Positions 29,212-42,976 of a stretch of DNA of 64,000 nucleotides are shown here, piece after piece (the stretch's first letter is position 1; every line of letters begins with the position of its first letter). Below the pieces are notes generated by a model. It was not told the origin of the DNA, searched no databases, and saw only the letters and a program-made list of their open reading frames with translations. The stretch lies in assembly GCF_015245355.1 (NCBI RefSeq), contig NZ_CP063311.1, positions 370,893 through 434,892 on the forward strand, given 5' to 3'. A program made the translations under genes and the position numbers. Source of the DNA: Anabaenopsis elenkinii CCIBt3563 (GTDB taxonomy: Bacteria; Cyanobacteriota; Cyanobacteriia; Cyanobacteriales; Nostocaceae).

Positions 29212-30552
29212 ATGTTAATGTCTGCCAGTTCAGATTTTGTTGCTCTATGCCGAGAGCAAATAGCACTGCTAGCCCAATGGCTGGGAGCATCATTAAGTGT
29301 TGTTTATCTAACAGAAGAACTGGTAGATGCTTCTGCTAGTGAAGCGAAACTTATTCCTGTGGTAGTTTACCCAGAAACAGTAGTATTACCTCCAGGGGAA
29401 GAAATGACGCAGCCACGAGTTGGGGATGTTGTGATCGTACATGAGCAACAAAGTAAGTTATTGGCACAGGGGACGGGATCAAGGATTTCATTAGACGAGA
29501 CAAAGAAAGCAGATGCACAAAAAACAGATTCACACCAAGGCTCTCGGCTGAGTGAACACCAAATTGTCCTACCTCTTATTCATGAAGGCGTGATGATGGG
29601 TCTATTGGTTACAGGTAGAGAAGATAGGGACTGGAATCAACAGGAACAAAGTGAAATTGAAAAAATCGTGCAAACCCTAGCCATCGCTTGTATCTTAGAC
29701 CAACGTCGAGCCTGGTTACAGCATCAGCTACATCAACAACAAATTTTGCAAGCCCAGCAGCGAGATTTGCTGGATAATCTACTACATCAGTTTCGTAACC
29801 CATTGACCGCCTTACGCACCTTCGGCAAACTGCTATTAAAACGCCTGCGTCAAGGTGATCCCAACCGAGATGTGGGAACTAGTATTGTCAGGGAAAGCGA
29901 TCGCCTCCAAGAATTACTGCGACAGTTCGAGCGGGTAATTGATTGGACTGAGGGTAATTTAGCACCTTTGCCATTGTCTGAGAATCAAGTATTTGTGGAA
30001 GCAACTGTCGAGAAAGAACCCAAACCGGTACTGTTGTTACCGGGAATAGGAGAACAAAATATTGATTGCTTTGTAGTTGATTTATTAACACCATTATTGG
30101 TGTCCGCTCAAGCAATAGCACAGGAGCGTAATCTAGAACTCTTAACCGAAATTCCCGCTAACTTACCTCCAGTAAAAGCTAATGTGAAAGCATTACAAGA
30201 AGTATTCAGCAATATTATTGATAATGCTTTAAAATACACTCCTCATGGGGGCAAAATAGTCATTCAATTAGGGCAAGAAAAACCTAATTTTCAGGGAATC
30301 GCCATTAGTAATACCGGAGTGGGTATTCCACCAGAAGACTTAGTACATTTGGGAGAACGCTATTATCGCGGAGTACAGGCCCAAAGTGAAATTCCTGGTA
30401 GTGGTTTGGGACTAGCGATCGCCAAACAATTAATCGAACAAATGCAGGGGGAAATGGAAATTTTCAGCCCAGCAATTAACTCGAGTCTGGTTTCGCCCCA
30501 TAAACCGGGAACTACATTTATAATTTGGTTACCAATCACTATTGAGACTTAA
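29212..30552 (+). CDS. GAF-domain sensor histidine kinase
   Basis: 446 residues. The N-terminal GAF-like sensor is at about 10-165. The dimerisation/phosphoacceptor helix LLHQFRNPLTALRTFGKLL (His in the H box) is near 195. The HATPase domain from about 320 has the N box NIIDNALKYTPHGG, G1 GVGIPPEDL and G2 GSGLGLAIAKQLIEQM. No membrane segment, so it is a cytosolic sensor. No response regulator is adjacent. Its last four bases overlap the sbcC end on the opposite strand. Confidence 0.88.
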   Translation: MLMSASSDFVALCREQIALLAQWLGASLSVVYLTEELVDASASEAKLIPVVVYPETVVLPPGEEMTQPRVGDVVIVHEQQSKLLAQGTGSRISLDETKKADAQKTDSHQGSRLSEHQIVLPLIHEGVMMGLLVTGREDRDWNQQEQSEIEKIVQTLAIACILDQRRAWLQHQLHQQQILQAQQRDLLDNLLHQFRNPLTALRTFGKLLLKRLRQGDPNRDVGTSIVRESDRLQELLRQFERVIDWTEGNLAPLPLSENQVFVEATVEKEPKPVLLLPGIGEQNIDCFVVDLLTPLLVSAQAIAQERNLELLTEIPANLPPVKANVKALQEVFSNIIDNALKYTPHGGKIVIQLGQEKPNFQGIAISNTGVGIPPEDLVHLGERYYRGVQAQSEIPGSGLGLAIAKQLIEQMQGEMEIFSPAINSSLVSPHKPGTTFIIWLPITIET

Positions 30553-33500
30553 ATTGATAAACTGACTTGGGAACCTTGTTGAGTTTTATTCACCTCAATC
30601 CGGGCTTGAAAAGCTTCTTTGAGATGGGGCATATGGGTAACTGTCAGGATACAAGCAAAATCAGAGGCGATCGCATTAATCGAGGCAATTAAGCGATCGC
30701 AGCCTTCCGCATCCTGGGTACCAAAGCCTTCATCTATAATTAATAATTGTAAAGCCGCACCAGCCCTCTGTGCCAATAATTTCGCTAGGGCTAAACGGAT
30801 AGCAAAGTTAATTCTAAAAGCTTCCCCACCGGAGTAAGTCTCATAGGCTCGTGTTCCCCGAGCATCAGCTATTAAAATATCTAAAGTATCGATCAGCTTG
30901 GCGTTTTTCTTCTTAGCCTTGTTACTCCGCCCAGATTTCTGAGTAATAAATTGCACGTGCAATTGATTAGCACTCAAACGCGATAACAGTTGATTTGTCT
31001 CGGCTTCCAGTTGAGGTAACACATTTTCAATCATCAATGCTTGGATACCATTTTTACCAAATGCCTGCGCTAATTCCTGATAAACTCGTTGTTGCTGCTT
31101 ACAAGCTTGTAATTCCTGCTGCTGTTCCTCATACTGAGTTTGCAGGTTTTCCAATTGTAACATCATCTGTTCTAAACGCCCCAGACGTGATATATAATCA
31201 TCCAGTTGTTGTCGGCGTGTGTGAATTTGCTCCTCTAAAGCCTTGATTTGCTCCGTGGGGTTGGCTGATTGGTCTAACTGTTGGGTAACACTGGCGATTT
31301 GAGTCAGGAGCTTTTCCACATCTCCCCATCTTTCCCTCCTAGAAGCTTCTAAATCCTCCCATCGTTGCTGGAGTTGGGGGTACTGCTCCTGGGCTAATAA
31401 AAGTTGTTGATAACGCAATTGCCAAGATTGACCTTGGCGTACCGCTTGGCGCAAGCTGTTGTGATGCTCTGAACTGTAGCCGATTTCATTAATCTGACGC
31501 TGAATTTGGGCAATTTGTTGGGCACACTCAGAATCAGTTTGCTCCTGCTGGATTTTAGTTTGTAATTGGGCAATATTCCCTTGTAATTCTGGTTTCCGGG
31601 CTGCTATTTGCCCCTGTCGCTTCACTGCGTCTCTAATTTGCCCTTGTTTAATTTCTGCCCACCGCCACCGCTCTACTTCACTGCGAGCCAAGGCATGGTC
31701 TTGCTCATTATAATTGAGTTGTTGTAAATATTCCTCTAGTTGCCGCAGTTCTGCCTGCTGTTCTGGGGCGTAATCACCCAGTTCCAGCGATCGCTCTAAA
31801 TCCTGCTTCTGAGTCGCTAATTCTTGTAATTCCTGCTGAGTGTCACTAATAGATTGCAGTTGTGCTGCTAATTTACCCCTTTGTTCCCTCAGGTGATCAT
31901 AGTTAGACAATTTATGATCTATTTCCCGGTATTCCTGTCTGAGCAGTTGAATTTCTCGATCCGAAACTGCGTTTTGTTCCCGTAATACCCACAATTGATC
32001 CTCAATATCCTTGTATTCCTCCTTAGTTTTATCTAGAACACGATTCCAGTGATGTTCATCTAAAGGACTTTCACACAAAGGACAACTTGCATCAGGGGTG
32101 CGAAGCATCTGCAATTTTTTCTCCAACTCCCCCAATAATCTTTCATATTCCCGTTCTTGACCTTGGAGACGTTCCATAAAGTGCCTTCTTTCGAGCCCTT
32201 TCTCCCGTACTCGTTGTAGGTAAACTTTATCTTTCTCCATTTGGGAAATCTGGGTTTCTAAGTCTCTGGCGGCTTGTTCTAGTTGCTGTTGACGTTGTGA
32301 GGAGCTTTTTAGTTGGTTTTCCCTCGCCTGTAACTGTTCCAGACGTGCTAAGATGGAATTATGAACTTTATCCAGTTGATTTTGCAGGTTTTGCCGTTGT
32401 TGTAACAAAGGAGAAACTTGCATTTGCAGTTCATCCAACTGAGTCAAACGGCGACGGGCACTGTTAAGTTGTGCTAAAGCAGCTTCAACTTCTCTAGATT
32501 TTTGCAGAATTTCATCAATTTCTGGCTCTTGTGATTCTAAGACTACTAATTGTCCTTCAATTTGTTGTACTTCCCTTTCCAGTGCGTGAATTTGGCTAGT
32601 TAGTTGCTGTTCCTTTTGTTGCAGCAACACCGTGGCACTGGTGTATTCTTGAAACTTACTTGCTAAGGCTTCCTCTTGCAGCTGAAGATTTTGATAGTTT
32701 CTAAAACCATTGTGGATTTCAGTCTCCTGATTTAATATTGTTTCTAAATCGGATAGCTGACTTTGAATTGCTGATTGTTCCTGTTGCAGGCGATCGCTAT
32801 CTTGAGTTAAATTTTGATGTTGTTGCCTGAAAAAATTCAGTTGTTGCTCCCAACTTTGGCGCTGATGCTGGATCACCTGCAAACTTTGTAATTGAATCTT
32901 CTCCAAAGCTTCAACTTGTTGCAGTTGCTGGAATTGACTTTCTAACTCTACCTTTTGGGCTGCGATTACTTCCTGTTCTTGCAGTTTAGTCTGGCTGGAC
33001 TCTAGACAACGCTCCAACTCCTCACATCTGGCCTTAAACTGGCGAGAAGCATCTTTTGCTCTTTCTTCGAGTTGATCATATTGATTAAGTTTTAATAACT
33101 CAGCCAGAATTTCCTTGCGCTCACTGGGGCGCTTGATCATAAATTCATCAGCACGGCCCTGACGCAGGTAAGCAGAATTAATAAAAGTATCATAATCAAG
33201 CTTGATGTGTTGTAATATCAACTCCTGGGTTGCTTTGACACCTTTACCAGTCAATGCACGAAACCCCCCTGCTGTTTCAATTTGAAATTCTAATACACCA
33301 CTCGCACCGCGAACTCGTGTACGAATCACCCGATATTTTTGCTGGTTACATTGAAAAATAAAATCAACTCGAACCTCTTTCGCCCCTGCATGAATTACAT
33401 CGTCTTCAACACCGGCGCGACTCTCACCCCAAATTGCCCATGTGATTGCCTCTAACAGGGAAGATTTACCCGCACCATTAGAACCACAAATACAGGCGGT

Positions 33501-33575
33501 ATGCAAACCGCTAAAATCTAAAGTTGCATCACGGTAACTCAGAAAGTTTTTCAGTATCAGTTGTACTGGAATCAT
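30549..33575 (-). CDS. sbcC: exonuclease subunit SbcC (Rad50-like ATPase)
   Basis: 1,008 residues. N-terminal Walker A ICGSNGAGKSSLLEAITW, two long coiled-coil arms rich in Gln/Leu/Glu flanking the zinc hook CPLC near residue 500, a C-terminal signature TYSGGEAFRINFAIRLALAK and Walker B LLIIDEGFGTQDAEG. SbcC pairs with the SbcD nuclease to process hairpins and broken ends in DNA; sbcD is not in this window. Two HIP1 octamers lie in the region encoding ...EGCDRLIASINAIASD, relevant to the fragment at 37690. It is convergent with the kinase gene. Confidence 0.95.
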   Translation of the reverse strand: MIPVQLILKNFLSYRDATLDFSGLHTACICGSNGAGKSSLLEAITWAIWGESRAGVEDDVIHAGAKEVRVDFIFQCNQQKYRVIRTRVRGASGVLEFQIETAGGFRALTGKGVKATQELILQHIKLDYDTFINSAYLRQGRADEFMIKRPSERKEILAELLKLNQYDQLEERAKDASRQFKARCEELERCLESSQTKLQEQEVIAAQKVELESQFQQLQQVEALEKIQLQSLQVIQHQRQSWEQQLNFFRQQHQNLTQDSDRLQQEQSAIQSQLSDLETILNQETEIHNGFRNYQNLQLQEEALASKFQEYTSATVLLQQKEQQLTSQIHALEREVQQIEGQLVVLESQEPEIDEILQKSREVEAALAQLNSARRRLTQLDELQMQVSPLLQQRQNLQNQLDKVHNSILARLEQLQARENQLKSSSQRQQQLEQAARDLETQISQMEKDKVYLQRVREKGLERRHFMERLQGQEREYERLLGELEKKLQMLRTPDASCPLCESPLDEHHWNRVLDKTKEEYKDIEDQLWVLREQNAVSDREIQLLRQEYREIDHKLSNYDHLREQRGKLAAQLQSISDTQQELQELATQKQDLERSLELGDYAPEQQAELRQLEEYLQQLNYNEQDHALARSEVERWRWAEIKQGQIRDAVKRQGQIAARKPELQGNIAQLQTKIQQEQTDSECAQQIAQIQRQINEIGYSSEHHNSLRQAVRQGQSWQLRYQQLLLAQEQYPQLQQRWEDLEASRRERWGDVEKLLTQIASVTQQLDQSANPTEQIKALEEQIHTRRQQLDDYISRLGRLEQMMLQLENLQTQYEEQQQELQACKQQQRVYQELAQAFGKNGIQALMIENVLPQLEAETNQLLSRLSANQLHVQFITQKSGRSNKAKKKNAKLIDTLDILIADARGTRAYETYSGGEAFRINFAIRLALAKLLAQRAGAALQLLIIDEGFGTQDAEGCDRLIASINAIASDFACILTVTHMPHLKEAFQARIEVNKTQQGSQVSLSI

Positions 33576-33724
33576 TGAGGCTACAGCACCACATCTATTG
33601 TTTTCCTATTTGGCAGTACAGATGCCTTATCTGATAGTTTAGCTATGTGCTTATGACTATTGTAGTATTTAAGTCCGTAACTTTAACAAAGTTAACAATA
33701 ATATGAGGCAACTTTTCATCAGAG

Positions 33725-34172
33725 GGTTAGCCAATAGCTAGTTATTTACTAATAATAGATTAGATATGCGGATAATAGTGGTATGGCTTATGTACCACTA
33801 CGAGAAGCAGTTAAACAACTGGGATTGCACCCAAACACTTTAAGGAAGTACGCAGACAATGGCAAGATTGAAAGCATCAAAAACGAAGCAGGACAAAGAC
33901 TTTTTCACGTTGAATCCTACCTCCGTGGTGCAACTAGAACTTCCTTTGTCTGCTACTGCCGAGTTAGTTCAACCAAGCAACCAGACGACCTTGGTAGACT
34001 TGCCTATATGCAATCACTCTACCCAGATGCTGAAATCATCAAAGATATCGGCAGTGGAATCAACTTTAAAAGAAAAGGACTGCAAACCTTACTGGACAGA
34101 CTTATGCGCCCAGATAAGCTCACGCTTGTTGTTGCCTGTCGTGACAGGTGAATGTTAGCAAAAAAGTATCGG
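33725..34172 (+). mobile_element. internally deleted IS607 derivative
   Basis: 33725 to about 34147 matches 26158-26590 closely, then jumps directly to sequence matching 27869-27893. The deletion removes the end of tnpA and all of tnpB (about 1.3 kb). The MITE copy 2 begins 20 bp further right, so the two elements sit side by side. Confidence 0.7.
33783..34151 (+). pseudogene. truncated IS607 tnpA
   Basis: 122 codons retaining the helix-turn-helix (REAVKQLGLHPNTLRKYAD) and the catalytic serine segment YCRVSSTKQPDDL, ending after VACRDR at the deletion junction. Compared with the 26226 copy, a one-codon loss shortens the segment before AYMQSLYPDAE. It could at most give a DNA-binding fragment. 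Confidence 0.75.
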
Positions 34173-34191
34173 AAAAGAAAATTATCCTGCT

Positions 34192-34463
34192 TTTGACACT
34201 CCCCACGGCTAGAAGCCTGGGGATTCTTGCTTCACGGGGATTCCAATGAATTTACCCGCGCTAACGCGCCGCTCCGCTAACTGCAAGCATCTTGACCCTG
34301 TGCCCCACGGCTGCAAGTCTGCGGGTAAATGGTTGTTTTACTCGCTTTGACCATTATATCACTGTGGCTAAAGCCAGTCAATCGTTCTAATGCGACTAAA
34401 GTCGCTAGCGCACTACACCCCCATAGTTAGAAACCAGGGGCACTGTGCGCGTTTTCTGGTAGG
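34192..34463 (-). mobile_element. 272-bp IS605-type MITE, copy 2
   Basis: Same length and organisation as 28182-28453, with differences such as one base in the CCTGGGG arm of the left hairpin. It carries the 73-bp left-end sequence at 34391-34463. Immediately right of it is unrelated DNA (AGTTGTATTG), which defines the boundary. Confidence 0.65.
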
Positions 34464-34504
34464 AGTTGTATTGATATGGTTTTCAAAATTCTCTTTACCG
34501 GAAC

Positions 34505-34606
34505 TTGGCGGGAGAGTGAAAGCCCCTGAGAAGCAGCAACGCAGTTGCGTACTTCGTGCTTTAGACAGGGGATGAAACGCGACTTGGCAGGCTTCAGCCT
34601 GCTGTG
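34505..34606 (-). repeat. guide-RNA-like right-end module, copy 3
   Basis: Read on the minus strand: hairpin CAGGCTGAAGCCTG (34586-34600 region), then GTCGCGTTTCATCCCC, a long stem-loop beginning CCCCTG and closed by CAGGGG, then CTTTCACTCTCCCG. The order matches copies at 19.8 and 28.1 kb, but the stem sequence differs by paired changes. It abuts the end of the RHH gene, whose stop codon lies inside the first hairpin. Confidence 0.5.
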
Positions 34607-34740
34607 TCCCCTTCGAGTTTTAGGCTATCAATCCAATCTTCAATCAAAGCAGTGATAGTTTTATCTTTTTGAGCAGCATATAAATAAAGTTTATTTCTTC
34701 TCCGCTCAGATAGACGTATTGTTAATGTTTTTCCCTTCAT
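34594..34740 (-). CDS. small ribbon-helix-helix protein beside tnpB
   Basis: 48 residues starting MKGKTLTIRLSERRRNKLYL and continuing AAQKDKTITALIEDWIDSL, a typical ribbon-helix-helix (CopG/Arc-like) DNA-binding fold: one strand with alternating residues, then two helices. It is divergent from the adjacent tnpB, with start codons 55 bp apart. Such small RHH genes often accompany IS605-type tnpB genes in cyanobacteria and may control the element's expression. The last residues (LEGDTAG) and stop lie inside the right-end hairpin, so the original C-terminus may have been changed. Confidence 0.7.
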   Translation of the reverse strand: MKGKTLTIRLSERRRNKLYLYAAQKDKTITALIEDWIDSLKLEGDTAG

Positions 34741-34795
34741 AGTTGACATACATTGTTAGTATTTAATGTTAGTATATATCAAGGAGGTGAAAACA

Positions 34796-36094
34796 ATGTA
34801 TGGATGTCAGCAAAACTTAGTTAACCCAGATAATGAACTTAGAGCAGTCATTGAGTTTATTTGCTCAGAGTCCCATAAACTGACAAATTGTGGTATCTAC
34901 TACGCTCGTCAGTTATATTTCAAAACTAGGAAGTTGATTGGTAAGTATGATTTAGAGAAAGAATATAAGACCAATAAACATTATCAAGTTTTGCACTCTC
35001 AAGCAGCACAACAAATTTTGAGGTCTGTTGCAGAATCATTTAAGTCTTTTAAAGAATTAGATAAGAAGTACAGCAAAGGTGAATTGCATTTTAAGCCCAA
35101 GCTGCCGAAATATCGTAAAGGTGCAGGGTATTCACTTGTGACCTACCCAAAGCAAGCATTGAAGCTTGTTGGTGATCATATAAAAATACCGCTGGGTAAT
35201 ACTGTTAAACGTTGGTTTAAACTTGATAGTTTCTTGCTGCCAATGCCTTCAAACCTGAAGTTTGCGGATATTAAGGAATTAAGAATACTACCAAGAAACC
35301 GATGCTTTTATGCCGAATTTGTCTATGAGCAAAAGTCGTCACCAAAAATTAATTTTAATCCCCAGTATGCTCTAGCAATTGACCCTGGCATCAACAATTG
35401 GTTAAGCTGTGTTTCTAATGTTGGAACTAGTTTTATTGTTGATGGACGCAAAATTAAATCTCTTAACCAATGGTATAACAAGCGTGTTGCTACCTTAAAA
35501 GAAGGTAAACCACAAGGATACTGGGATGAACAACTAGCCCACATCACAGAAAAGCGTAACCGACAAGTGAGAGATGCTGTAAATAAAGCAGCTAGATTAG
35601 TTGTTGACTACTGCATTAAATACAAAATTGGTACAGTTGTTTTTGGGTGGAATCAAGGACAGAGACAAGAAGCAAAGTTGGGTAAAACAACTCAATCTTT
35701 TGTACAAATACCAACAGCTAAATTAAAGGAACGAGTTAAACAACTGTGCGAATACTACAGCATCAAATTTGTTGAAACTGAAGAGTCCTACACCAGTAAA
35801 GCTAGTTTTTTAGATGGTGACTTTCTACCTATTTTCGGCGCAAAACCTGAAGGGTGGATACCAAGTGGAAAACGAGTAAAACGCGGAATGTATTGCACTG
35901 GTGCAGGTAAATTAATCAACGCTGATTTGAATGGTGCTGCGAATATTCTTCGCAAAGTAGAGACACAACTAGATTTAAATCTGGTCAAGGTCTGTAGGCG
36001 AGTTTTGACCCTCGCTACCAGATATCGTATCTGGGAAACCAAAACTAAAAAGCGGGGGGAAGCGGCTTTAGCCCTTCTGGTAGCAACAGTTTAG
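34796..36094 (+). CDS. tnpB: IS605-type TnpB lacking canonical RuvC-II Glu and zinc finger
   Basis: 432 residues from the ATG at 34796, seven bases after AAGGAGGTG; an upstream in-frame TTG would place that ribosome site inside the gene. RuvC-I Asp is in ALAIDPGINNWLSC and RuvC-III Asp in LINADLNGAANILRK. The strand that usually carries the RuvC-II Glu reads VVFGWNQGQRQEAKLG, with no acidic residue at the strand end; candidate replacements are the nearby Glu residues here or in FVETEESYTSK. No CxxC pair is present after that. It is either a rearranged active site or a catalytically dead, possibly regulatory, TnpB relative. Confidence 0.82.
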   Translation: MYGCQQNLVNPDNELRAVIEFICSESHKLTNCGIYYARQLYFKTRKLIGKYDLEKEYKTNKHYQVLHSQAAQQILRSVAESFKSFKELDKKYSKGELHFKPKLPKYRKGAGYSLVTYPKQALKLVGDHIKIPLGNTVKRWFKLDSFLLPMPSNLKFADIKELRILPRNRCFYAEFVYEQKSSPKINFNPQYALAIDPGINNWLSCVSNVGTSFIVDGRKIKSLNQWYNKRVATLKEGKPQGYWDEQLAHITEKRNRQVRDAVNKAARLVVDYCIKYKIGTVVFGWNQGQRQEAKLGKTTQSFVQIPTAKLKERVKQLCEYYSIKFVETEESYTSKASFLDGDFLPIFGAKPEGWIPSGKRVKRGMYCTGAGKLINADLNGAANILRKVETQLDLNLVKVCRRVLTLATRYRIWETKTKKRGEAALALLVATV

Positions 36095-36097
36095 AAT

Positions 36098-36118
36098 CCC
36101 CGTCCATTTATGGCGGGG
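36098..36118 (+). other. right-end hairpin of the IS605-type element
   Basis: CCCCG and CGGGG close a stem just after the tnpB stop, followed by GAGAGGTCAAC. It is the expected structure for the transposon right end and the 3' end of its guide RNA. No tnpA (Y1 transposase) is present. Confidence 0.6.
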
Positions 36119-36292
36119 AGAGGTCAACAAATCTTAATCAATGTTAGTCATCTGGCGAGCAAGAATATAAATATCTTCCCTGAACAATCTTTAACTCCAG
36201 ATTAACACCGGTCAGTCACGTTCAAACACACCAGAAACAATGATCATCAATACCTCGTCAGATCGGGTACAGACATTCAGCACAAGCATCTT

Positions 36293-36976
36293 ATGAATAC
36301 TCTTTACCAGTGGAAATATCAGAGCGCCGCACTTTTAGCAGCAGTTACTACTACTGTTGCTCCCATGATGATTGCCTATGCTCCTGCTCATGCTGCCCAG
36401 TGTAATACTGCCCAAACTAGAACAGTCACAATTCCAGCTAACGCTGGCGTAAGTCTCCCCGTAACACATGAAAACCAGAGAGTTGTTGTGGAACGTGGGG
36501 AAACATTAAACCTGACATTGAAAATATCAAACGACATCATCGATGGTCGCAGAAACATCTTAATTCCCAGAAACACTGAAGTTATAGGACAGCTAGAACC
36601 TGTATATTTCGATAACCGCAACAGAGATAGTAACAATGTTAGAGGTGTAAGGTTCGTGGCCAGGGAGTTAGTCTTTGCTGATGGCTGTCGCCAATCAATT
36701 AATGCTTCCTCTGGGATAATTACCAGAACTGAAAAAATTACTAAAAATGATACCGGCAGAGTATTGACAGATGCGGCTATTGGCGCTGGTGCTGCTACGG
36801 CAATTTCATTAATTACAGGTAACCGCAGAGTGGAAATCTTAGAACCAGTGGGGGGTGCTGCAGCTGGTGCTTTAGCTAGTGTATTGCTACGGAAAAAAGA
36901 AGTTGAAGCATTCGTTTTAAGACCCGAACAAGATTTGAGGCTGGGACTCAATTCCAATTTAGTTATCAACTTCTAG
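36293..36976 (+). CDS. secreted hypothetical protein
   Basis: 227 residues with a Sec signal peptide (hydrophobic 10-30, cleavage expected after AHA at about residue 34). A beta-rich domain follows: TVTIPANAGVSLPV, LTLKISNDIIDGRRNILIPR, GQLEPVYFD. Then comes a Gly/Ala-rich hydrophobic hairpin, LTDAAIGAGAATAISLITG and VGGAAAGALASVLLRKK, and a final strand, VLRPEQDLRLGLNSNLVI. The pattern resembles periplasmic proteins that use a glycine-zipper-like membrane-associated segment. I do not recognise a named family. It stands alone downstream of the tnpB element. Confidence 0.65.
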   Translation: MNTLYQWKYQSAALLAAVTTTVAPMMIAYAPAHAAQCNTAQTRTVTIPANAGVSLPVTHENQRVVVERGETLNLTLKISNDIIDGRRNILIPRNTEVIGQLEPVYFDNRNRDSNNVRGVRFVARELVFADGCRQSINASSGIITRTEKITKNDTGRVLTDAAIGAGAATAISLITGNRRVEILEPVGGAAAGALASVLLRKKEVEAFVLRPEQDLRLGLNSNLVINF

Positions 36977-37089
36977 ATTGACTATTATCCTTGAGCGATG
37001 GCCACTGCACCATAAGATGGCGGGCGATCGCTTAATTTTTTAGCTGCAATCTGCTGTAAGTTTGATGCTAGCTTTTGAGCCAAAATGAA

Positions 37090-37593
37090 TTAATCAATCC
37101 GTTGTGTATTACCTATTCTTACCCAACCTTCTTGTTGGCTTTGGGTGCGGATTTTTTGCCATCTTTTATCCTGACTTTCCGCCAAAATAATCAATTCTTC
37201 ATTCACAGCCACCCCAGCCACACGGGGAGCATCCAAACTTGGTTCAGATCGCACACTCAACCCCTCAGCCCATGTTACACGTCCTCGGTAGGCTCCCTCT
37301 GGTAATGTTTCCTCTGGAGTTTCCTCGGGAGTTTTCTCGGGAGTTTCTGGGTTTACATCCTCATTATTATTATCTGATACATCTGTTACCTGAGTTATTT
37401 CAGGGGCTGGTTCTGGCAAAGAGGGACGATCATTGACAAAAATAGGTTTAGGCGGGGAGATTAAATTGCGATTAATGAAATAGAATGCAACCGTCACACC
37501 GCTACCGATTAAAATGGCGATCGCTAAAAAAACTCCTAAGATAAATTTTAGTAAACTAGACAGCACAGTTAAAACCTCATCGTCAATGGTCAA
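37090..37593 (-). CDS. membrane-anchored SH3b-domain protein
   Basis: 167 residues. One membrane helix near 15-37 (FILGVFLAIAILIGSGVTVAF), a Pro/Glu/Thr-rich linker with repeated TPEET-like units (EKTPEETPEETLPEG), and a bacterial SH3 domain: GLSVRSEPSLDAPRVAG and WQKIRTQSQQEGWVRIG. SH3b domains usually bind peptidoglycan, so this is probably an N-in, periplasmic wall-binding protein. The repeat linker is encoded by near-identical tandem units that may vary in number. Confidence 0.78.
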   Translation of the reverse strand: MTIDDEVLTVLSSLLKFILGVFLAIAILIGSGVTVAFYFINRNLISPPKPIFVNDRPSLPEPAPEITQVTDVSDNNNEDVNPETPEKTPEETPEETLPEGAYRGRVTWAEGLSVRSEPSLDAPRVAGVAVNEELIILAESQDKRWQKIRTQSQQEGWVRIGNTQRID

Positions 37594-37689
37594 TAGTCAA
37601 TAGTAATTCATAATTAAATATTGACCACTCCGATAAAAAATGTACTGGAGCAGCCAGTGTAAAATTACGGTAACTTGATGATAAAAAAA

Positions 37690-37791
37690 GTGAGCGCCGC
37701 CTTACTATTGCTAATTATTCATGAAGGCTTTGATACACAGGATGCAGAAAGATGCGATCGCATCTGACTTTGCTCGTATCCTTACTGTTAC
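37690..37791 (+). pseudogene. decayed sbcC 3' fragment
   Basis: Read in two frames: AALLLLIIHEGFDTQDAERCDR, then after a shift IASDFARILTVT. This matches SbcC ...LQLLIIDEGFGTQDAEGCDRLIA... and IASDFACILTVT of the intact gene at 30549. Compared with the intact gene, 26 bp are missing between two HIP1 octamers, leaving one octamer and shifting the frame. The Walker B Asp is also changed to His. It lies directly beside the stop of the ABC fusion gene. Confidence 0.8.
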
Positions 37792-37793
37792 CC

Positions 37794-39326
37794 CTAGCCT
37801 GATAGAACTTCCCGACGATAAGCCAATTGTGCTAGCACCCCTGCAACGACTGTCCACCATAGTAACCACAGGATATGAACTAGGGGGTAGTTGTCAAACT
37901 TAAAAATTATGCTGTTCGATATTTGGAAATTGGCTTGACCTATCCAAGCGATCAATTGACCGTAATGATAAGCAGGGGAATAAAGAACCAATTGCTCAAA
38001 CCAAGGTTGAGGAAACAAACTGGTTGGGTTCCATCCTACTGTTAACAAAATCAAAGCTATAACTATCAGACTCACCCACCGGACAGACTCAGGTTTAAAG
38101 AGATATCCCAAGGTGAAGCTGAAAATAGCAAAGGGAACAATGGCTAATAGTAGGATTAGACTTAACCAGAGCATCCAGGGTTCAAATATCAATGCTGGTT
38201 TGTGATGTACCAAGCTCTCCACCTCTGCGGTAATCAGAGATAATCCACTCATTGTTAAAGCCAGCAATGAAAAAATCCCTACTTTGGCGGCAAGATATGT
38301 TGTAAAGGGAAGTGGCGTGATTCGGATGAGTTTTAACCAACCGCGATCGCGTTCTGAGGCAATTTTCAAACAGAACTGAGTAATACAAAGAAAAAGAATC
38401 AAGGCACTTAAAGAAATTGATACATAGGCTTGGAAGGATTCTTGGCTAGATTTATCAAGAAAGAAGCCAATGGCAATCGCTGAAATAGCACTCCCCAGCA
38501 CAGTATCGATTTTGCGAAAACCTTGTAACATCTCAGCATAGAACTGTCCCCAAAAGGCTTTGGAATTGCTGATAAAATTGTTTTCTTGATAGTCACTGCT
38601 AGCTGGAGAATGTTGTGGAGAATTGTCTGTGCTGTTAACAACAGCTAGAAGGTCTTGATAGCGAGGTGAGGAAATTTCTTGAATTTTTCCATGACTTGGT
38701 TCTAATATCAGTTCCCGTGTCACTAAATCAGCAATTTCATCACAATCTTGTTGACTGTGGCTAATGGCGATAATGGTTTTTCCTTGGCTATGGAATTCCC
38801 GAACTTGCTTCCAGAAATTTTCACGAGCTTCTTGACTAAGATTATTAGTAGGTTCATCAAGAATGAGTAAATCTGGGTTTCCCACAATCGCTAATGCAAA
38901 ATATAAAGATTGAGCTTGTCCCCCAGCTAAGGTGGTTGCATAATCGTTTTGTTTTGTGTCTAAACGCGATCGATTGATGGTATCTTCAAGTTCCAGGGGT
39001 TGGGGATAGTAACTCCGAAATAGCTGAATAGTTTCTTTGACAGTGAGATATTCCACAGGTTTTGCCCGTTGTAACATCGTCCCCAGTCTTAAATGAGATT
39101 TCGGATCTTGTGGTGATTTACCAAAAACTTCAATAGCTCCCTGATTGGGAGATTGTAATCCACACAACAGGTTTACTAAAGTAGTTTTCCCAGAGCCATT
39201 ATCCCCACGCAGTAAAATAAATTCTCCGCACAGAATATCTAGGTTAATATCGTCTAAGACGTTCTGCTTTTTTTGAGCAATCACATAGGTTTTTGTAACA
39301 TTCTCGAGCTTAATAACTGATTTCAT
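37794..39326 (-). CDS. ABC transporter, ATPase fused to ABC-2 permease
   Basis: 510 residues. ATPase domain 1-215: Walker A GDNGSGKTTL (41-50), signature TLAGGQAQ (variant of LSGGQ, 132-138), Walker B LLILDEPTNNL and switch His in IIAISHSQQDC. A linker to about 255 precedes an ABC-2-like membrane domain with about six helices (for example TVLGSAISAIAIGFFLD and LSLILLLAIVPFAIFSF). Such half-transporters act as homodimers exporting lipids, polymers or peptides. It is last in a tight operon with a small membrane protein (5-bp gap) and an Ig-like membrane protein. Substrate unknown. Confidence 0.82.
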   Translation of the reverse strand: MKSVIKLENVTKTYVIAQKKQNVLDDINLDILCGEFILLRGDNGSGKTTLVNLLCGLQSPNQGAIEVFGKSPQDPKSHLRLGTMLQRAKPVEYLTVKETIQLFRSYYPQPLELEDTINRSRLDTKQNDYATTLAGGQAQSLYFALAIVGNPDLLILDEPTNNLSQEARENFWKQVREFHSQGKTIIAISHSQQDCDEIADLVTRELILEPSHGKIQEISSPRYQDLLAVVNSTDNSPQHSPASSDYQENNFISNSKAFWGQFYAEMLQGFRKIDTVLGSAISAIAIGFFLDKSSQESFQAYVSISLSALILFLCITQFCLKIASERDRGWLKLIRITPLPFTTYLAAKVGIFSLLALTMSGLSLITAEVESLVHHKPALIFEPWMLWLSLILLLAIVPFAIFSFTLGYLFKPESVRWVSLIVIALILLTVGWNPTSLFPQPWFEQLVLYSPAYHYGQLIAWIGQANFQISNSIIFKFDNYPLVHILWLLWWTVVAGVLAQLAYRREVLSG

Positions 39327-39331
39327 GATGA

Positions 39332-39619
39332 TTAGTGAAAGAGATGAAGGAAATCAATTTTTTCGATAACAAACCAAATTCCTGCTCCTGCAAGTAAAGC
39401 TTGTCCCACTGGAATTCCTAAGAAAGTTATTAAGGTTAAACTGACTATTACAGCTATTACTATTATGGGCGGTGGAAATGGTGGTGGTGGTGGGGGACAA
39501 GTTGAGTTAATGCAAATTTGGTGAGGAAGTAAAGCTAAAAGCAAAACAAAAATTGTAATCCCTCCCACAATTTTGACTAAGGATGGGGGAAGTCCGAATA
39601 TTTTTTTTGGGTTTTCCAT
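39332..39619 (-). CDS. small two-helix membrane protein with polyproline stretch
   Basis: 95 residues. Hydrophobic segments at about 14-31 and 50-72, separated by a short loop, CINSTCPPPPPPFPPP, holding two cysteines and a proline run. The C-terminal amphipathic part is GIWFVIEKIDFLHLFH. No known family. Position between a transporter fusion and an Ig-like protein (gaps of 5 and 16 bp) makes it very likely a subunit or partner of the same membrane system. Confidence 0.65.
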   Translation of the reverse strand: MENPKKIFGLPPSLVKIVGGITIFVLLLALLPHQICINSTCPPPPPPFPPPIIVIAVIVSLTLITFLGIPVGQALLAGAGIWFVIEKIDFLHLFH

Positions 39620-39635
39620 GATAAAAAAATGCTTA

Positions 39636-41009
39636 TCAATTTACATTTTCAACGAACCAGCAATATCCCCAGGCTGCCGCACTTCCGATACCAACTGCGA
39701 ATGGCGGGGGAACCGTTAATACAGATACGCCCACGGTAGTTATGCCTCCAACGATGACCGCTGTTTCTCGGCTACACAAGCGTGTCACCTCCACACTTGC
39801 CGTATCTGTTTTACTGGAATCAGTAATGGATTTCACTGAGATATGTGCTGTACCTTTTTTTTGTCCCGTAATTACACCATCCTGTTTCACCTCAACTATT
39901 TCGGGATCATCGGATTCCCAGGAAAGTTCTTTCTTAAAATCACCTTCTCCTTCCAACTTGACTTGAAATTGAAATGTATCGTTTATTCCCAGTTTTTTTT
40001 CTCGTGGTTCCAAGTGGAGACCCGTGATAATGGGTTCTGAAACTTTTAATTCAAACGCAGTAGACTTGTTGGGATCTAAATTCGATATCCCAACAATCTT
40101 AGTTGTTCCAGGATTGAGCGCTAATAGTTGACCTTGGCCAGAAATGCTAGCAATAGTGAGATCCTCTGATGACCAAGATACGGTGAGATCGGCTGGAGTA
40201 CAGTTACCTTGACATTCAACATTAACTTTTACCGTACCTTGTGTGCCCACATAAAGCTGCTCTGGTTTATCCACCAATTGAATGGCTGTGATTTGAGGTG
40301 GATTTTCTAAAATTTCTACCGGGATAGTCTGGGTGAGTCGTTTATCTTTGTTCCACACTCCTGTGATTTCAGTTTTTCCGGGTTTTAAGGCTTTTACCTG
40401 ATTAGAGCTATCAATTTCAAGCAGGCTATGATTCTTAATCTTCCACGAGAGAGATTTATCTGTTAACCAGGTAAGACCCTCAATTTTGACTTCTAATTTA
40501 CGGGTTTTGCCTGCTTTGATCCGTAACTGTTGGGGGTTAACGGCTAACTTGGGTAAAACTTCAACTGGAATACTATAGGCTGGTAGATTGTTTCCTTTAG
40601 ATTGATTTTCTTGAATATCAAACTTAACCTGAACTTCAGTGGTTCCCACTGACCTAGCTACAACATGAGCTTGATTACCTTGTTTTTCGATTGCTACCTT
40701 GGAGTTACTTGAACTCCAATCGAATTTTGGGGTATTGGAACCAATATTGCGTATTTGAGCGGTGAGGGTGGCTTGCTCACCTAATGTAATCTCTAAACGT
40801 TCAGGGTGAACAGAAGTTATCCAGCATTCTGTTTGTTTACCTTGCTGCCACCATAGGATAGGATTGCAGCTCTGTTGAGAAATGATAGTGTAAGCTACTA
40901 GAGATACTGTCCAGAGGATAAATATACCAATAAGTATTTGCGATCGTCGGAATAGACTCTCCAGAAAATTAGGCTTAACCGAAGAACTTGAGGGAGCTTG
41001 AGAAGTCAT
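39636..41009 (-). CDS. membrane-anchored Ig-like (Big) repeat protein
   Basis: 457 residues. N-terminal membrane helix at about 24-44 (QILIGIFILWTVSLVAYTII). Four bacterial Ig-like repeats follow (about 65-150, 153-235, 240-325, 328-410), each with the Big_2 pattern of a strand pair, a W-S-S core and a GxTxI/V closing strand: FDWSSSNSKVAIE, SVGTTEVQV, LKPGKTEITGV, LNPGTTKIVG, KKGTAHISV. The C-terminal segment is hydrophobic (VGVSVLTVPPPFAVGIGSAA). Ig-like repeats face the periplasm and could contact a polymer or partner. It is first gene of the operon. Confidence 0.75.
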   Translation of the reverse strand: MTSQAPSSSSVKPNFLESLFRRSQILIGIFILWTVSLVAYTIISQQSCNPILWWQQGKQTECWITSVHPERLEITLGEQATLTAQIRNIGSNTPKFDWSSSNSKVAIEKQGNQAHVVARSVGTTEVQVKFDIQENQSKGNNLPAYSIPVEVLPKLAVNPQQLRIKAGKTRKLEVKIEGLTWLTDKSLSWKIKNHSLLEIDSSNQVKALKPGKTEITGVWNKDKRLTQTIPVEILENPPQITAIQLVDKPEQLYVGTQGTVKVNVECQGNCTPADLTVSWSSEDLTIASISGQGQLLALNPGTTKIVGISNLDPNKSTAFELKVSEPIITGLHLEPREKKLGINDTFQFQVKLEGEGDFKKELSWESDDPEIVEVKQDGVITGQKKGTAHISVKSITDSSKTDTASVEVTRLCSRETAVIVGGITTVGVSVLTVPPPFAVGIGSAAAWGYCWFVENVN

Positions 41010-41280
41010 GAGAAACTCTCATTATTAAAGTTTGCATCCACAGTTTGATTACATACTATATCATTACTTGCTGTATCAAGCTACTCTTAAATTTCGCAAT
41101 ACCATTGTGCCAGGTTCTTCGATAGAATCCGAGTAAATACGTAAAAAATATAAATTGATTAAGTAGGGTTTTCCATTTTTAACCCAAGGTTTCCAGATAA
41201 GTTTATACATATATATACATCCCCAATAAAGAATGTGGAGGGGTGCCATTAAAATTTTTTACAACCGTTGGGAAAAATTA

Positions 41281-41414
41281 TTAAGTAGGTCAACATTCAA
41301 CAACGTAAAATGTGGATAGAGATTGCTTCACTCCACTTCGTTCCGTATGGCTAACGCCAAGCTTCGCTAACGCAATGACGTTTTATCTTTAATTAAGTAC
41401 GTTGACCTACTTAA
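41281..41414. repeat. 134-bp element bounded by 14-bp perfect inverted repeats
   Basis: TTAAGTAGGTCAAC (41281-41294) is exactly complementary to 41401-41414. The interior contains a GCTAACGC...GCTAACGC repeat typical of dispersed cyanobacterial sequences. It lies in the otherwise empty 41010-41425 interval, 12 bp past the Ycf46 stop. It could be a MITE or a large terminator structure. Confidence 0.55.
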
Positions 41415-41425
41415 CATCCGAATGA

Positions 41426-42943
41426 TTAATTACGTAACTTACCGAAAGTATCACCCAAAATATTGTGTTTCGAGGCTAAACGAGCTCTCCCAGATGCAGC
41501 CCACGCTTGTAGTTGTTGGATTTGTTCCACAGCTGTACGCGCCAAGGGTATAATCTGGCTGGCAGCTTCGAGAATGTCATCAGTAGTGAAATCCCGGTTT
41601 TGACTAAATCCAATGTGCATGGCTTCAATCAAAGTTTGCTCAATTTCGGCTCCGGAAAAATCCGGCGTTTCATAAGCTAGTCTGTCAAGATCATAACCTT
41701 TCAAATTATGGGGGCGCAATCGGGATAAATGAACATTGAAAATTGCTTTTCTCTCCTCTTGAGTAGGTAAACCCACAAAGAAAATTTCATCAAATCGCCC
41801 TTTACGCAACATTTCTGGTGGTAGGGATTGGATATCGTTAGCAGTGGAAACAACAAATACAGGTGAGGTTTTTTCAGCTAACCAGGTAATAAAAGTACCA
41901 AATACACGGCTAGTAGTACCTGCATCACCTTTACTACCCAGTCCGGAAAAAGCCTTATCAATCTCATCAATCCACAATACACAGGGGGCGAGGGCTTCTG
42001 CTACCTGAATCATTTGGCGAGTCCGTGATTCTGATTCACCCACTAAACCACCAAATAAGCGTCCTACATCTAAACGTAACAGGGGTAAATGCCAGTGATG
42101 GGCGATAGCTTTTGCTGTTAAAGATTTACCAGTTCCTTGAATACCTAATAACATTAAACCCCGGGGGTGGGGTAATCCGTACTGTCGCGCCTGATCAGTA
42201 AATGAGCCTCCCCGACGCAGTAACCAATCTTTGAGGTTATCTAGTCCCCCTATATCAGAAATTTGCTCAGTGGCGGGGTAAAAGTCCAGGATTTGGGTTT
42301 GGCGGATAGTTTGGCGCTTTTCCTCCAAAACTAAGTCTACATCCTCTGGCTGTAATTCTCCATGGGATGCGATCGCTCTAGCTAAAACCCGCCGAATCCT
42401 GTCCATAGACAGCCCTTGACAGGAACGCACCAAGTCATCGATAATTTTCCCAGATAGGGAGTAATTACCACTAGTTTGTAGTAACCTTTCCACCTCAGCT
42501 TTAATTTCCGAGGCGCTGGGTAAAGGAAACTCTACCACCGTCAGCACTTCAGTTAAATCATCAGGAATAGCAACCCGCGGCGACAGCAACACCAGATTTT
42601 TGGGTTGAGACTTGAGGAGTCTAGCTAAGTTGCGAAGTTTGCGGGCAATAGCTACATCATCTAAAAACCGATGATAATCCCGTAAAATCAAGACAGCTGG
42701 GGCAGAAGCTGGCAGCTTTTCCACAAATTCCAAAGCCTGCAAAGGGTTGCGCTTGCCAAACCCAGCATCATTGGGGTTACCCTGGTAGCCATCCACAAAA
42801 TCCCAGGTGTATACAGGGCGGTTTCCTAGGTTGGCCGCTGCTGTCCCTATTGCGGCTTCCACTCGTTCCTCCTCATAAGTAGGGATATAAATCAAGGGGT
42901 AGCGGGCCCGTAGTAACAATTTAAATTCTTCACCAAAGTTCAT
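41426..42943 (-). CDS. AAA ATPase, Ycf46-like
   Basis: 505 residues. An N-terminal non-ATPase region begins [20 protein letters not shown], then an AAA module with Walker [15 protein letters not shown], Walker [12 protein letters not shown] and the arginine-finger region [13 protein letters not shown]. This matches the cyanobacterial and algal plastid Ycf46 family (Synechocystis slr0374 type), linked to carbon acclimation. Cytosolic. It is separated from the upstream yceD by a terminator, so it has its own promoter. Confidence 0.88.
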
Positions 42944-42976
42944 AATTTGTCAAAATTTAAAAATATATATTTGTTG

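Follow-up and report, generated by a model that had tools for sequence, protein, structure and literature searches.

Can a scrap of DNA that has lost a few bases between two HIP1 octamers tell us whether HIP1 affects the stability of cyanobacterial genomes? This question is raised by a short relic of the DNA-repair gene sbcC (hereafter the ghost) in Anabaenopsis elenkinii CCIBt3563. It lies in a 64,000-nucleotide stretch of contig NZ_CP063311.1 (positions 370,893 to 434,892), which is called the window here. All coordinates are counted from the first letter of the window, and the features are listed in Table 1. In our judgement, the ghost has probably undergone an ordinary deletion between short direct repeats in a scrap of sbcC pseudogene, with HIP1 supplying the homology.

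Table 1. Positions of the ghost, the intact sbcC gene and the neighbouring features in the window
Feature	Position	Strand	Basis or remark
Intact sbcC, 1008 aa (AAA_23, Rad50 zinc hook Rad50_zn_hook, SbcC_Walker_B)	30549..33575	-	ORF + Pfam
HIP1 site B of sbcC	30667..30674	-	HIP1 scan
26 bp of sbcC without counterpart in the ghost	30667..30692	-	Placement ambiguous within the repeat
HIP1 site A of sbcC, first in gene direction	30693..30700	-	HIP1 scan
SH3-domain gene	37090..37593	-	Pfam; 3′ end adjoins the sbcC 3′ end in G001 and G088
Segment (ghost and three genes), flanked by the SH3 gene and an AAA ATPase	37630..41425		Boundaries approximate
sbcC ghost, about 104 bp	37690..37793	+	BLAST matches + collapsed alignment to sbcC
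Single HIP1 octamer at the ghost deletion junction	37754..37761	+	HIP1 position scan
ABC transporter with ATPase and ABC-2 permease in one fused protein; convergent with the ghost	37794..39326	-	ORF + Pfam
Small protein encoded in the segment, without a Pfam match	39332..39619	-	ORF + Pfam
Big_2 Ig-like protein of the segment	39636..41009	-	Pfam

The ghost and its 26-bp deletion

An earlier note, made from the letters of the DNA alone, had read positions 37690-37791 as a fragment of SbcC around Walker B. The BLAST matches and the alignment bore out this identification, and the position was right except that the ghost reaches slightly further, to about 37793. When 26 bp were removed from the sbcC gene of this genome, the gene and the ghost aligned in a single ungapped block with 83 of 104 bases identical. 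By offset, the ghost corresponds to 130 bp of the intact gene (30635-30764, minus strand). In BLAST, its left arm was 82% identical to this sbcC over 66 bp, and its right arm matched the sbcC sequence 3′ of the second octamer. This right-arm match was to the sbcC of G088 at 27 of 31 bases, beginning a few bases beyond the junction, and to that of G065 at 37 of 45 bases, beginning at the second octamer of G065.

The two octamers (GCGATCGC) of the intact sbcC are spaced 26 bp apart. Alignment, octamer spacing and reading frames all confirmed the statement of the earlier note that exactly 26 bp are gone, so that a single octamer remains and the frame is shifted; the loss equals the repeat spacing and one repeat is retained. 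Frame 0 of the ghost reads ...LLLLIIHEGFDTQDAERCDRI and then meets a stop, and the next frame reads DAIASDFARILTVT. Furthermore, the Walker-B Asp, which belongs to LLIIDE in the intact SbcC, is replaced by His. Because the frame is shifted and this Asp is now His, the ghost is dead sequence, a decayed copy of the Walker-B region of sbcC, and it shows the homology, the broken frame and the broken motif of an sbcC pseudogene. No Rfam match was found at E ≤ 1 in 36900-38200.

To see how special the junction is among possible deletions, we enumerated losses of at least 10 bp inside the homologous 132 bp of the window sbcC. Junction homology of at least 8 bp was found in 1 of 5,663 distinct products, namely the observed ghost junction, although this is not a clean p-value, the feature having been chosen for its striking look. 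The same enumeration in the sbcC of G017 gave two products with at least 8 bp of homology among 5,658, one of them the ghost-type junction.

Slippage or single-strand annealing at short direct repeats keeps one copy and loses the spacer together with the other copy. We propose that a small sbcC fragment travelled with an ABC-transporter segment or was left behind at its edge, and that during or after its decay it would have lost 26 bp between short direct repeats 26 bp apart. The repeats would have been the two HIP1 octamers, extended by a few matching bases at their flanks, and the route may have been either replication slippage or single-strand annealing. HIP1, being abundant, most likely gave only homology at this deletion.

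Octamers of the sbcC relatives and the parent of the ghost

The reading in the earlier note, in which the HIP1 copies acted as direct repeats in a slippage or recombination deletion, depends on a donor sbcC with the second octamer. We compared 40 distinct sbcC 3′ ends, taken from loci of up to 9,000 bp with a Walker-B motif. Both octamers, at the 26-bp spacing relevant to the ghost, were present in 32 of the 40 (this genome included), a share that may be biased upward because most of these genes were fetched by similarity to the octamer-bearing ghost. Four others had the first octamer alone and four the second alone. In addition, a direct repeat of at least 10 bp was found in 29 of the 40, the commonest being ATGCGATCGC (13/40). 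Thus, the proposed deletion between two HIP1 copies stays the simplest explanation in view of the 32 genes with both octamers, among them the gene of this genome, although the closest sbcC, that of G088, is without the second one. Site B is substituted there (locus L042) and reads GCCATAGC; it is also substituted in the sbcC of the congener G001 (locus L012), where it reads ACGATCGC. Both octamers are present in the sbcC of G017.

When the sbcC genes were collapsed in silico, the best agreement with the ghost was given by G088 (87/104) and G017 (86/104), followed by several genes at 83/104. These values are too close for a resolved phylogeny of the parent of the ghost. The left arm was best matched by the sbcC of G088 (60/72), and the right arm by that of G017 (28/32; 27/32 for G088). 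G088 and G017 are of one genus, and both arms are most similar to the sbcC of that genus. A ghost without the deletion was searched for in the 217 genomes of the family, and none was found.

From these comparisons, a parent with both octamers is the likelier state. If the parent had been without the second octamer, a random deletion, or one at 1-2 bp of microhomology, would have happened to end beside site A. G088 and the four genes of the 40 with site A alone speak for such a parent. However, most sbcC genes, including those of this genome and G017, carry site B, and of the thousands of products that a deletion could give, only about one would fall in exact octamer register by chance. We therefore regard this origin as unlikely.

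It has also been considered that the ghost is the joint of a recombination between two different sbcC fragments, with no deletion inside one copy. The best matches of the two arms come from different genomes, and the ghost lies at the edge of a segment common to two lineages, so that joining of DNA did happen nearby. On the other hand, the two genomes belong to the same genus, the arms are collinear and in exact octamer register, and they are similarly diverged (60/72 and 27/32 against G088). Such a joint is very improbable, and a deletion between the two octamers of one copy remains our preferred explanation.

Distribution and neighbourhood of the ghost

The same ghost with the same deletion, 94% identical, was found in G088 (WGNO01000021.1, the MAG Nostoc sp. 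RI_552), where it is located between the SH3 gene and a shortened copy of the same ABC transporter gene. Among the 217 genomes of the family, only this genome (G000) and G088 matched across the ghost and its flanks, in a search that scored at most 3 candidates per genome (E ≤ 1e-13) and that a more diverged ghost would escape. The left arm alone was matched at sbcC-like similarity in 6 other genomes of the 217. The plasmid collection gave no match to the ghost. Meanwhile, a degenerate pattern of the collapsed junction hit the genome contigs five times, and only L077, the same record as G088, was the ghost. The other four hits (L074, L075, L076 and L078) were rejected, as they had no match to the ghost or to the window sbcC at E 1e-5. 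Since the same scrap carries the same deletion in G088, the ghosts of the two genomes represent a single event, inherited or transferred.

The ghost stands at the left edge of the ABC-transporter and Ig-like segment. This segment is missing in the sister genomes G001 and G017 and shortened in G088. This genome and G088 are 95% identical over the N-terminal part of the SH3 gene, 94% over both the intergenic DNA and the ghost, and 93.5% at the end of the ABC gene; identity was 70% in the SH3 body, 80-81% in sbcC and the histidine kinase gene, and 87% in 40854-42946. At 37507, inside the SH3 gene, the agreement with G088 rises abruptly, from 70% to about 95% identity, which suggests a recombination boundary there. 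Given this identity pattern and the absence of the segment from the sisters, transfer of the segment between lineages is likely, and the sbcC fragment would have moved with such a transfer; alternatively, the segment may have been present ancestrally and lost later. We rejected the idea that the ghost is a remnant of the native sbcC site. The neighbour of sbcC in G001 and G088 is the 3′ end of the SH3 gene, whereas the ghost is found on the 5′ side of that gene, and G088 holds both sbcC and the ghost.

The ABC gene (37794-41009 region) is rare. It was found in 7 of 100 relatives searched at E ≤ 1e-40, this genome included, and the best outside match was in G154, with 62% identity; G088, which keeps the shortened remnant, is outside that set of 100. 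By inspection, L080 and L081 have beside their ABC gene a small ORF similar to the 39332-39619 product. In G044 and G154, a related ABC gene is accompanied by small neighbours like those here, and no sbcC match was found in their 4.6-kb ABC-gene loci.

Some other features were noticed around the intact sbcC. The stretch 30542-37050, which carries sbcC and the gene at 36293-36976, is inverted relative to G001, G088 and G017. No inverted repeats were found in the breakpoint region 30400-30700. The other breakpoint region, searched separately, has one 15-nt inverted-repeat pair at 37587-37627, upstream of the SH3 gene. In 33783-36094, located between sbcC and the gene at 36293, Pfam identified an IS605-type OrfB/TnpB gene, which is preceded by a small ORF that we take to resemble a serine resolvase. 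In addition, about 1.3 kb beside the histidine kinase gene, common to G001 and G088, is gone from this place here, a statement that concerns this location only.

Stability of HIP1 pairs and comparison with known HIP1 deletions

To estimate how often HIP1 pairs collapse, we surveyed 400-kb blocks from four genomes of one genus (G140, G126, G065 and G104), which are 88.8-90.1% identical over their shared 135-300 kb and whose comparisons are not independent, and a second pair, G102 (360 kb) and G034 (380 kb), which is 88-94% identical at one shared locus. Exact direct repeats of at least 8 bases with 10-300 bp spacing were tested, and a collapse was scored when the relative was shorter by exactly one spacing. 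Long repeats were put in neither class, and octamers made up of only one or two different letters were excluded. The surveyed DNA, with coding and non-coding pairs pooled, is presumably mostly genes, where selection removes frameshifting losses. When HIP1 collapses were planted in one genome pair, 11 of 12 were recovered (40 sites were aimed at, 12 of them far enough apart).

HIP1 pairs had collapsed in 0 of 455 comparisons (422 of the same length and 33 of other length; 232 distinct uncollapsed sites), and other octamer repeats in 20 of 13,145 (at 18 distinct positions, of which some share a locus). Nine of these 20 had spacings of 14, 21 or 28 bp, which are typical of tandem heptamers, so that for lone repeat pairs the control rate is closer to 11/13,145. 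For G+C-rich octamers the count was 8/1,729, and for long repeats 20/929. Fisher's test gave P = 1.0 for HIP1 against all others and P = 0.22 against the G+C-rich octamers. The one-sided 95% upper bound for HIP1 was 0.66% when all 455 comparisons are counted and 1.3% for the 232 distinct sites, and the control rate was 0.15%. Thus, HIP1 pairs show no sign of excess collapse, and with this limited power a several-fold excess over 0.15% is still compatible with the data. A first version of the test had scored one HIP1 collapse in 417 (others 30/12,690); this pair in G065 sits among several other repeat pairs collapsed at the same 120-bp period and belongs to a longer tandem repeat, a class that the final test sets apart. 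In a general gap list, 277 of the 1,305 gaps of at least 6 bp were 10-300 bp long with good flanks. None of the 277 was bounded by HIP1, and 10 had at least 8 bp of homology; since random placement also gives 0, the gap list is by itself little informative.

Because none of the 455 HIP1 pairs collapsed, HIP1-bounded loss is not common. Meanwhile, other direct repeats of 8-18 bp collapse occasionally (the 20 of 13,145), so that deletions of this kind are normal here. The survey is a rough comparative estimate, by which HIP1 pairs are not conspicuously unstable. The statement of the earlier note that the ghost lets us see directly how HIP1 acts on genome stability was not supported: one event in two genomes, set against this survey with its limited power, offers a slight hint of such an effect, and the idea is not new, as the titles of Gupta 1993 and Robinson et al. 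1997 make clear. The role of HIP1 is not settled by this single case.

HIP1 might instead be an active hotspot of deletion or recombination, dependent on methylation or a nuclease, with the ghost as its product. The junction of the ghost falls exactly at HIP1, and several sources agree with such activity. By its title, Gupta 1993 concerns a deletion involving HIP1 at the metallothionein locus of a cadmium-tolerant cyanobacterial strain, HIP1 has been proposed to promote gene rearrangements according to a citing paper (PMC6331805), and Elhai 2015 (PMC4390886) cites connections between HIP1 and recombination of both the site-specific and the illegitimate kind; the evidence described there ties HIP1 to site-specific recombination, and none to homologous recombination. 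However, the survey counts show no such activity, even though the upper bounds are several times the control rate. Furthermore, the title of Robinson et al. 1997 reports that the frequencies of HIP1 excision are similar between E. coli and Synechococcus PCC 7942, which suggests general repeat homology. A hotspot is therefore improbable. We give an equally low probability to HIP1 as a dispersed deletion-prone element whose effect is visible only in selection-free DNA such as the ghost, an effect that the survey would miss because the collinear DNA surveyed is presumably mostly genes.

With an ordinary deletion at short repeats as the preferred explanation, the ghost can be compared with the known cases. 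No description of such a ghost was found in literature searches, which did not name sbcC. The deletion in the title of Gupta 1993 is, like the ghost, a loss of cyanobacterial DNA involving HIP1; it concerned a working locus in a cadmium-tolerant strain, whereas the ghost is a dead gene scrap without visible selective value. The excision of Robinson et al. 1997 is likewise a loss of DNA promoted by HIP1 copies, seen in cloned sequences in the laboratory according to Elhai 2015, whereas the ghost is a natural fossil that cleanly records a deletion between two HIP1 copies. It shows how the abundance of HIP1 can furnish homology for small losses. Compared with short-direct-repeat deletions in general, we saw no difference, HIP1 being the particular repeat, and the ghost is a fresh instance of an already described kind of HIP1-involving deletion.
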